Source: Actinomycetes bacterium
GTDB taxonomy: Bacteria > Actinomycetota > Actinomycetes > Propionibacteriales > Propionibacteriaceae
NCBI GenBank assembly: GCA_021803025.1
Contig: JAJZQV010000027.1
Span: 1-33,170, forward strand
Direction of reading: 5' to 3'
DNA length: 33,170 nt
A model generated the notes under the pieces. That model saw nothing but the letters and a program-made list of their open reading frames with translations. It did not search any database and was not told the origin of the DNA. Position numbers and translations under genes: made by a program. Below are positions 22,272-24,191 of the stretch, piece by piece (position 1 is the first letter of the stretch; each line of letters starts with the position of its first letter).

Positions 22272-22277
22272 TAAAGT
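22272..22277 (+). promoter_or_regulatory. -10 box of the leuA leader transcript
   Basis: TAAAGT lies 7 nt before the ATG of the leader peptide, so the leader ORF is probably translated from a leaderless 5' end. Inferred. Confidence 0.55.
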
Positions 22278-22284
22278 GGCTGGC

Positions 22285-22332
22285 ATGTCGCGGGCGACCC
22301 TCCTTCTTGGCTGCCGCAGCGAGGCCCAGTAA
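22285..22332 (+). CDS. leuA leader peptide (leucine-rich, 15 residues)
   Basis: Short [18 protein letters not shown] ending in TAA, about 65 bp upstream of leuA. Three consecutive leucine codons (CTC CTT CTT at 22300-22308) sit in the middle; CTT is unusual in this GC-rich genome, which would sharpen sensitivity to charged tRNA-Leu. Its 3' part (22314-22324) is one strand of the attenuator stem, so ribosome position on this ORF can control leuA. Leucine leader peptides before leuA are known in Actinobacteria. Confidence 0.78.
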
Positions 22333-22390
22333 CGCCGGCCTCCTCGCTGCGGAGTCGCTGCGTGTCGGCACCCACCCAGACCAGCGAGGA
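22314..22390 (+). promoter_or_regulatory. leuA translational attenuator (competing stem versus Shine-Dalgarno)
   Basis: Segment A, CCGCAGCGAGG (22314-22324, inside the leader ORF), is perfectly complementary over 11 bp to segment B, CCTCGCTGCGG (22342-22352). Segment B's TCCTCGCT (22341-22348) is also perfectly complementary over 8 bp to AGCGAGGA (22383-22390), the Shine-Dalgarno of leuA. A:B and B:SD are mutually exclusive. A ribosome stalled on the leucine codons leaves A free, so A:B forms and the SD is open. A ribosome reaching the TAA covers A, so B can mask the SD. The pairing is seen; the regulatory logic is inferred. Confidence 0.72.
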
Positions 22391-22397
22391 CCAAGAC

Positions 22398-24191
22398 ATG
22401 ACCCACAGCTTCGGCACCCGGCCTCAGAACGGACTGCCCGTACAGCAGCCGTCTCCGATGCCCTTCCAGCGCTACACCCCCTTCGTACCGATCGACCTGC
22501 CCGACCGGACCTGGCCGACCAAGAAGATCACCCATGCCCCCCGGTGGCTGTCCACGGACCTGCGTGACGGCAACCAGGCCCTCATCGACCCCATGACGCC
22601 GTCCCGCAAGATGCGGATGTTCGAGCTCCTCGTCGGCATGGGCTACAAGGAGATCGAGGTGGGGTTCCCCTCCGCTTCGCAGACCGACTTCGACTTCGTG
22701 CGCAAGCTCATCGTCGAGGACCGGATCCCCGACGACGTCCAGATCTCCGTGCTGACGCAGGCCCGCGAGGACCTCATCGACCGTACGGCGCAGAGCCTGG
22801 TCGGGGCGCACCGCGCGAACATCCACCTGTACAACGCGACCGCCGAGCTGTTCCGCCGTGTCGTGTTCCGCATCTCCGAGGCCGAGTGCGTGGAGATGGC
22901 GAGGAACGGGACCCGCCTGGTCATGAAGTACGCCGAGAAGTACCTCGAGGACACCGAGTTCGGCTACCAGTACAGCCCTGAGATCTTCACGCAGACCCCC
23001 ACCGACTTCGCCATCGAGGTGTGCAACGAGGTCATGGACGTCTGGCAGCCCGGCGAGGGGCGCGAGATCATCCTCAACCTGCCGGCGACTGTCGAGCGCT
23101 CCACGCCGAACACGTACGCCGACCAGATCGAGTACTTCTCCCGGCACGTCAAGAACCGGCCGTACGTGGCTGTGTCGCTCCACCCGCACAACGACCGCGG
23201 GACCGCGGTGGCGGCCACCGAGCTGGCGCTCATGGGCGGCGCAGACCGCGTCGAGGGCTGCCTGTTCGGGCACGGCGAACGGACGGGGAACGTCTGCCTG
23301 GTCACGCTCGGCATGAACCTGTTCAGCCAGGGCATCGACCCGCAGATCGACTTCTCCGACATCGACGAGATCCGTCGGACGGTCGAGTACTGCACGGGCC
23401 TGCCGGTACATCCCCGTCACCCGTACGCGGGCGACCTGGTCTACACCGCGTTCTCCGGATCTCACCAGGACGCCATCAAGAAGGGTCTGGAGGACCTCGA
23501 GAAGCAGGCCGCCGCCCAGGGCGTGGGGCTGCACGAGGTCGCCTGGGAGGCACCGTACCTGCCGATCGACCCGCACGACGTGGGCCGTACGTACGAGGCG
23601 GTCATCCGTGTGAACAGCCAGTCGGGCAAGGGCGGCATGGCGTACATCATGAAGTCCGACCACCACCTCGACCTGCCGCGCCGGCTCCAGATCGAGTTCT
23701 CGCGCGTCGTCCAGCAGCACACGGACGCCGAGGGCGGTGAGGTCACGAGCCAGACGATGGGCGAGATCTTCGCCACGGAGTACCTCGACAGCGTCGAGCC
23801 GCTCGAGCTCGTGACGTGCACGACCGTCTCCAATGGCAACGGGTACTCGATCACGGCCACGGTCCGCGACCGGGGTGTGGAGCGGACGCTCTCCGGCGAG
23901 GGCAACGGGCCCCTGTCGGCGTTCGTCGACGCGCTGGGCCTGCTGGAGTACAACGTCCGGGTGCTGGACTACCAGGAGCACGCGCTCTCGCCCGGTGGCG
24001 AGGCCAAGGCCGCCGCGTACGTCGAGGCCGAGGTCGCCGGCGACGACGCGACGCAGGTGTACTGGGGCGTGGGCATCGACTCGAGCATCGTCACCGCCTC
24101 GCTGCGCGCGGTGTGCAGCGCCATCAACCGTGCGCACATGTCCGTACCGGTCGAGGACCGCGTCGTGGACCCGGTCGGGATCAGGCCCTGA
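22398..24191 (+). CDS. leuA: 2-isopropylmalate synthase (long actinobacterial form)
   Basis: First committed enzyme of leucine biosynthesis: acetyl-CoA + 2-ketoisovalerate to 2-isopropylmalate. The 597 residues match the long LeuA type of mycobacteria and corynebacteria. The TIM-barrel opens with the HMGL signature [17 protein letters not shown] (R56, D57), contains the metal-binding [11 protein letters not shown] near residue 260 and [10 protein letters not shown] near 291. The C-terminal LeuA dimerisation/leucine-feedback domain runs from about 440 to the end ([47 protein letters not shown]). ATG 22398 is set by GCGAGGA 7 nt upstream; in-frame GTG 22362 has no such site and lies within the attenuator region. 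Expression should respond both to leucine feedback and to the leader. Confidence 0.97.

Follow-up and report, generated by a model that had tools for sequence, protein, structure and literature searches.

A putative ribosome-read leader of the LEU type before leuA in Propionibacteriaceae, with codon-exchanged counterparts before other branched-chain amino acid genes

The window analysed here, a stretch of 33,170 nucleotides from a 3.37 Mb assembly of a member of the Propionibacteriaceae (the family, below), carries a leuA gene that starts with the ATG at 22398–22400. Its product exceeds the Pfam cut-offs for HMGL-like, IPMS_D2, and LeuA_dimer, and the nearest named leuA comes from a Propionibacteriaceae MAG (91% in the best segment). 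A short leader ORF and several complementary segments lie upstream (Table 1). The leader comprises 15 codons, from ATG (22285–22287) to TAA (22330–22332), and a gap of 7 nt separates its ATG from the TAAAGT box. Segments A and B are exact reverse complements over 11 bases, and TCCTCGCT at 22341–22348, which takes in B with one preceding base, pairs fully with AGCGAGGA at 22383–22390. The original prediction had described this anatomy, including the three consecutive Leu codons, the perfect 11-bp A:B pairing, the 8-bp B:SD pairing, and the mimicry of the SD by A (AGCGAGG is found in both), and every coordinate proved correct on the sequence. A second stem, P2 (22334–22339 with 22364–22369), was missing from that account; it crosses A:B, resulting in an H-type pseudoknot. 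A role of A as the SD of an internal start was ruled out, since the region 22325–22343 contains no ATG, GTG, or TTG.

Table 1. Features of the leuA upstream region and of leuA in the window
Feature	Position	Strand	Basis
-10 box TAAAGT of the leader promoter	22272..22277	+	Read from sequence; TANNNT at a conserved position
Leader ORF, probably leaderless	22285..22332	+	Sequence; similar leaders at 250 leuA sites
Control codons CTC CTT CTT	22300..22308	+	Leu-run and spacing counts over 250 leuA sites
Segment A CCGCAGCGAGG, 5' arm of the A:B stem, with SD-like AGCGAGG	22314..22324	+	Sequence, alignment
5' arm of P2, GCCGGC	22334..22339	+	Crossing-stem analysis
Segment B CCTCGCTGCGG, partner of A and, in the window's lineage, of the SD	22342..22352	+	
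3' arm of P2, GTCGGC, 6 pairs including one G-T	22364..22369	+	
leuA SD region AGCGAGGA	22383..22390	+	Sequence; AGCGAGG enrichment in the family
leuA, 2-isopropylmalate synthase	22398..24191	+	Pfam HMGL-like, IPMS_D2, LeuA_dimer

The window's leader belongs to the LEU element, which was described before actinobacterial leuA operons and in one transposase (Seliverstov 2005, PMC1262725). Both share a leader ORF with a Leu run, a pseudoknot, a location in the leuA start region, and the lack of a terminator, the two crossing helices of the window (A:B and P2) being likened to the published ones by their description in the text. A number of differences can be noted. The SD of the published element pairs with the Leu run, whereas its computed partner in the window is B. 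PMC1262725 names only leuA operons and one transposase, whereas sites with altered codons before leuC, leuB-ilvE, and LeuA_dimer genes are reported here. P. acnes was described as lacking the element, whereas a leader model built here matches 133 of 147 genomes of the window's family, in all 29 sampled genera (E ≤ 0.01). The same model matches 36 of 296 genomes drawn phylum-wide, most outside the class, and with a second model, which omits the codon run, 313 of 345 genomes of the class match (E ≤ 0.001). The covariance models of Rfam 15 gave no match at gathering for the window or for eight related loci, and none at E ≤ 1 for the region 22200–22480. Five loci (L194, L195, L197, L336, and L352) hold a second, divergent leuA-type gene with a Leu-rich leader of its own; these genes are about 49–53% identical to the window's leuA, and their host genomes have a further match elsewhere.

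The SD mimic inside the leader and its leaderless start had been singled out as notable, but neither is new in kind: leuA leaders of this sort go back to the description of 2005, and a passage of PMC8079986 reports LeuL1 of S. lividans TK24 as leaderless, as the window leader probably is, and as devoid of a typical Rho-independent terminator. That passage on LeuL1 (MRFGLLLLSCRGEGL, before leuA) gives no analysis of A, B, or the SD, unlike the present study; the LeuL1 peptide recurs in Streptomyces loci of our sample. Passages of PMC4046766, PMC8709942, and PMC5784534 also mention leuA leaders in C. glutamicum and C. diphtheriae. Passages of PMC9031893 and PMC13236596 describe polycysteine leaders of mycobacterial cys operons (Canestrari 2020) as leaderless short ORFs whose codons sense an amino acid and control downstream translation; they differ from the window leader in their cysteine codons and in their genes, and the likeness is one of description. 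According to a passage of PMC13236596, the ilvB1 leader of M. tuberculosis is a uORF that carries LVVI control codons and precedes an operon for branched-chain amino acids, but it differs in using a Rho-independent terminator and transcription attenuation.

For comparison, 295 loci with a leuA match yielded 250 distinct leuA sites (8 were missed and 37 were duplicates); no start was called at 16 of them, leaving 234 for SD counts and 230 for folding, and the family set was compiled from locus numbers. A TANNNT box lies 6–11 nt upstream of the leader start in 246 of 249 leuA sites, a count somewhat inflated because the candidate start with the box nearest to 7 nt was chosen; the control rate is 29 in 18482 positions. 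At family sites, the box is found at 6–8 nt in 99 of 102 cases (6–7 nt in 98, 8 nt in one). Leaders start with GTG in 56 of the 112 cases with the box at 7 nt. A consensus promoter scan requiring a -35 hexamer called no promoter at the window leader. The box thus occupies the position expected of a leaderless leader, which the window's leader, as predicted, probably is.

The control codons keep a fixed distance to A. At least three Leu among six codons are found at 239 of the 250 leuA sites, where the choice of A carried a bonus for Leu/Ile/Val codons; in the 81 leuA sites of a set without this codon bonus, the Leu share is likewise 0.55. At 242 of 250 sites, the final Leu codon of the run begins 8 nt upstream of A, and A begins 10–25 nt before the leader stop codon (16 nt at 142 and 13 nt at 68 of the 250 sites). 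In 86% of leuA sites, this final Leu codon is CTT, which makes up 1.3% of the 233 Leu codons in six window genes. The assumed ribosome footprint extends from 17 nt upstream to 11 nt downstream of the first base in the A-site codon. By this measure, A stays free while the ribosome is on the first Leu codon, has its beginning covered when the ribosome is on the last one, and is covered when the ribosome stands at the stop codon.

Free energy of folding was dropped as evidence for the element, since the window shows no excess over 200 shuffles (z = -0.41; 64 of 200 fold at least equally well). Alignment was more informative. Among 37 aligned leuA leaders, 97.5% of A:B cells hold standard pairs, and 24 cells are altered on both sides against 8.3 in shuffles (none of 500 reaches 24), a number that falls to at most 5 when the partner is slid. 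Two of five covariation measures are not above shuffles in these 37 leaders: double changes fall on 3 different pairs, a value reached by 165 of 500 shuffles, and 8 pair types occur, reached by 436 of 500. When second-hit loci are added (48 sequences), 98.7% of cells are paired and double changes amount to 39 against 13.8; 4 pairs carry a double change (57 of 500 shuffles) and 12 pair types occur (429 of 500). At the 250 leuA sites, which were required to show at least 9 of 11 A:B pairs, stem pair 5 is GC in 129, AT in 116, GT in 3, and TA in 2 cases, and stem pair 9 is AT in 180, GC in 36, GT in 32, and AC in 2, while stem pair 7 is non-standard in 44, mostly C-C. Aligned sequences thus indicate that the A:B stem is conserved with matched changes on both sides. 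The arms of P2 are diverse yet matching (GGCCGAC/GTCGGCC, CAGGC/GCCTG, GGGTAGCC/GGCTGCCC), with a modest excess of pairs over swapped arms (mean of 6.67 versus 5.91; 6.34 versus 5.45 in the family). The stem variant CCGCGGCAGGG, with a matching B, was missed by the site pattern in four loci (L371, L378, L379, and L382), with leaders such as MRKQLVVIACRGRAS, read by eye. Stem variants CCGCAACGAGG or CCGCAACGGGG, each with a matching B and likewise missed, occur in L271, L281, and L300.

The pairing of B with the SD behaves differently from A:B. A covariation check on relatives had been suggested for all three segments, and whereas it favoured A:B, no compensatory changes were seen in B:SD. B:SD was therefore rejected as a covarying helix: it is enriched but uncompensated, and weakened in variants such as L246 and L266. 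Of 98 family sites, 42 carry AGCGAGG in their SD region, versus 2 of 136 other leuA sites and 1 of 141 other gene starts of the window's genome. By genus, it is present in 11 of 25 family genera and absent from 14, the extremes being 12 of 12 sites in one genus and 0 of 12 in another. In the family, the duplex of B and SD has an energy of -14.6 kcal/mol, compared with -11.9 for family B with other gene starts of the window's genome and -10.8 for family SDs with a foreign B; in other clades, the SD pairs at -10.6 kcal/mol with its own B and better, at -11.3, with that of the family. Because AGCGAGG is found in 11 of 25 family genera and at only 2 of 136 sites outside, the tight 7–8 bp B:SD switch is, judging from these counts, a lineage feature, and this part of the prediction is not supported in its original form.

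Folding with the ribosome placed at successive positions, in a model that leaves out pseudoknots, gives computed pairing probabilities for the SD. In the window, SD:B pairing comes to 0.00 in the ribosome-free RNA and to 0.02, 0.05, and 0.68 when a ribosome sits on the first Leu codon, the last Leu codon, and the stop codon, respectively. For the same four states, mean SD:B pairing is 0.12, 0.21, 0.54, and 0.49 in the family and 0.02, 0.05, 0.14, and 0.12 in other clades, and SD:Leu-run pairing is 0.45, 0.04, 0.00, and 0.19 in the family and 0.39, 0.00, 0.00, and 0.29 in other clades. Outside the family, the Leu run is the predicted partner of the SD; in the window, SD:Leu-run pairing without a ribosome is only 0.08. 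The window's SD is mostly paired in most states (total of 0.69, 0.76, 0.54, and 0.90). Its predicted opening cost is 5.2 kcal/mol with the ribosome on the first Leu codon versus 7.7 at the stop codon, a difference of +2.5. The family mean of this difference is +2.79 kcal/mol (64 of 94 sites above +1 and 8 below -1), versus +1.07 (45 above +1 and 18 below -1) when the 3' part is replaced by one random foreign 3' part per site, taken from other clades. The corresponding values for other clades, +1.64 versus +1.42, barely go beyond this control. Between stop and last Leu codon, the differences are +1.71 (foreign +0.78) in the family and +1.59 (foreign +0.81) kcal/mol in other clades.

The position of the stalled ribosome within the run matters in these computations. 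Placing the ribosome on the last Leu codon removes most A:B pairing (0.03 in the window, 0.08 in the family mean), and family SD:B pairing is then 0.54, so that the predicted opening holds only for early stalling in the run, a result that depends on the assumed footprint. Without a ribosome, A:B re-forms (0.93 in folding); closing would therefore require either a kinetic trap or a ribosome positioned at the end of the leader. A computed shift between exclusive structures, one of them hiding the SD, is seen between first Leu and stop codon in the window; for the last Leu codon, it is absent from the family mean. The switch that had been proposed, opened by stalling and closed by completion of the leader, thus has the predicted sign (window SD:B from 0.02 to 0.68) and a modest size, but its family B:SD part would need a ribosome that stalls ahead of the last Leu codon.

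Second matches in other genomes lead to leuC, leuB (usually followed by ilvE), and a stand-alone LeuA_dimer gene. The search model R2 starts 3 bases upstream of A, leaving out the codon run, and codon content is therefore a free read-out. These non-leuA sites come from 80 genomes picked for two or more matches, a partial fetch rather than a census; the leuB sites derive from six families of the sample, and the leuC and LeuA_dimer sites from one family each. The multi-gene set comprises 152 loci, with the element in 140 (133 distinct) and 12 unparsed, 8 of 9 inspected unparsed loci visibly holding element variants; it was compiled without the codon bonus but with a bonus for a reference gene downstream. 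The six leuC leaders, for example MRAQRLLLRCRGGASS, contain Leu codons. The 29 leuB leaders carry mixed Val/Leu/Ile codons (MRQVLVLITCRGGA, MRHIFVLRCRGGAS, MRSVFVLIDCRGEA, MQWAVRILGCRDGVR), L397 being retained among them though probably a false element. Val codons mark the nine LeuA_dimer leaders (MSRMLVVRRRSGV, MPRRLVVATRSGV). At least two Val/Ile in six codons are found in 9 of 250 leuA, 0 of 6 leuC, 27 of 29 leuB, and 8 of 9 LeuA_dimer leaders, and at least three Leu in 239 of 250, 6 of 6, 0 of 29, and 0 of 9, respectively; the Fisher P for the leuA versus leuB contrast, which ignores relatedness, is 1e-27. The exchange can be seen within one genome (G709), with MARLLLLRCRSEV before leuA (L323) versus MRSVFVLIVRRGEAF before leuB (L286). 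The last control codon again lies 8 nt before A at 24 of 29 leuB, 6 of 9 LeuA_dimer, and 4 of 6 leuC sites.

IlvE acts on all three branched-chain amino acids, and the mixed codons before leuB-ilvE fit its three substrates. The control codons correspond to what the gene under control produces, a test that rests on leuA, leuC, and leuB-ilvE. In leuB and LeuA_dimer leaders taken together, GTA accounts for 44 of 66 Val codons (11 of 248 in window genes) and ATT for 14 of 30 Ile codons (1 of 112), rarity being judged on six window genes and not on the genomes that hold these sites. The leaders appear to prefer rare codons (CTT, GTA, ATT), which we count for attenuation. A single SD-closing output for all gene classes was rejected: sites with stop-versus-first-codon differences in SD opening cost above +1 and below -1 number 11 and 5 of 25 for leuB (no clear effect, with a small ORF as target), 1 and 1 of 6 for leuC, and 2 and 0 of 4 for LeuA_dimer. 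The output before leuB may be transcriptional. A loose pattern finds a second small ORF (about 20–54 codons) between leader and leuB in 28 of 29 loci (e.g. L325, L365, L304), the picks being doubtful at least in L200 and L340. Its proteins often end in ALDRRDNGG.. or ..PDDN, and four of them gave no match against NCBIfam. A search for such an ORF in the window's own genome found none, an empty answer that shows little. The stand-alone LeuA_dimer gene, of about 130–146 aa, is found in nine loci (L193:524-916, L202:507-944, and seven more), all in one family of the sample; the L193 protein is above the Pfam LeuA_dimer cut-off and that of L202 just below.

Taken together, the occurrence of the LEU scaffold before leuC, leuB-ilvE, and a stand-alone LeuA regulatory-domain gene appears to be new on these sequence matches; a literature search that reached only a minority of subscription papers turned up no mention of the element at leuC, leuB, or LeuA_dimer genes, and such reports may exist. 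It is quite likely that A, B, P2, the 8-nt spacing, and the leaderless-type start form a portable attenuator scaffold before these four kinds of gene (leuA, leuC, leuB-ilvE, and LeuA_dimer), with codons swapped per gene (Leu, Leu, Val/Leu/Ile, and Val, respectively) and read by a ribosome, not by a protein.

For leuA itself, the LEU element is probably a ribosome-mediated translational attenuator. Its parts, the matched A:B changes, the fixed spacing, and the gene-dependent control codons emerge from sequence comparison, the change of SD partner and the opening cost are computed, and we infer the stalling, the 5' end in the window's organism, and the effect on leuA translation. The transcript would start at or beside the leader AUG, so that translation of every transcript would begin with its first codon. 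Under a shortage of charged tRNA-Leu, the ribosome would wait early in the Leu run, upstream of A, which would pair with B and be locked by P2; with A:B formed and the Leu run hidden inside the ribosome, neither partner would occupy the leuA SD. With ample leucine, the ribosome would reach the stop codon, covering A and the 5' arm of P2. The released B would then pair with the SD over 7–8 bp in the window's lineage, the Leu run behind the terminating ribosome would also be able to do so, and leuA translation would drop as the SD closes. Of the switch as first conceived, the codon spacing, A:B covariation, -10 box, and folding sign stand, but B:SD is not general.

The same ribosome sensor could act through the Leu run alone, as in the base stem of 2005, with B:SD incidental and A:B and P2 only shaping the RNA. 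We regard this as unlikely, though it accommodates the lack of compensatory change in B:SD and the non-family foldings, in which SD:Leu-run pairing drops from 0.39 without a ribosome to 0.00 on the first Leu codon while SD:B stays at 0.02–0.14. It does not sit well with the low SD:Leu-run pairing in the window or the strong enrichment of AGCGAGG in the family, and the Val/Ile runs before leuB and LeuA_dimer genes cannot be the same anti-SD. Somewhat less likely still, ribosome position could set termination in the leader (Rho-dependent or unrecognised) instead of SD access. An intrinsic-terminator attenuator of the trp/ilvB type was rejected, since no terminator-like site, with a hairpin and U run, was found at 22150–22500; moreover, the leuA SD lies close behind the element and its predicted accessibility shifts with ribosome position. 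In favour of a transcriptional output are the mycobacterial ilvB leaders with LVVI codons, which use transcription attenuation according to the passage in PMC13236596, and the leuB class, whose next start is 140–345 nt from B in 15 of 25 sites, with no clear SD effect.

PMC1262725 favours a protein regulator, proposing from phylogenetic co-occurrence, and from the reported persistence of regulation in S. coelicolor Leu-codon mutants, that the element is a binding site (for ML1624 orthologues), which would make the leader peptide incidental. One of its passages states that leuA leader mutations in S. coelicolor had some effect, though not of the classical attenuation kind (citing Craster 1999), and another that Leu-codon mutations do not influence regulation. 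Equivocal as they stand, these reports argue against the classical form of attenuation, and we count them against a ribosome-mediated attenuator. A protein site gives no reason, however, for control codons that vary with the downstream gene while stem and spacing stay, nor for a preference for rare codons; codon change on a constant scaffold favours reading by the ribosome over the 2005 model, and we hold the latter to be improbable. Chance complementarity in GC-rich DNA would agree with a fold energy no better than shuffles, but it is scarcely credible given the model matches in 133 of 147 family and 313 of 345 class genomes, and for A:B the changes matched on both sides refute it at the level of sequence.

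How the LEU element works has been a question since 2005, and the model lacking the codon run matches 313 of 345 genomes of the class. The window itself holds an element already known, whose SD pairing is specific to its lineage; of greater weight is the family of codon-exchanged leaders. Codon exchange on a constant scaffold is a direct argument for ribosome reading, and these leaders offer experimenters natural swap constructs. The findings point to a larger branched-chain amino acid regulon, which would count among its members a free-standing LeuA regulatory domain and the small, unnamed protein encoded ahead of leuB.
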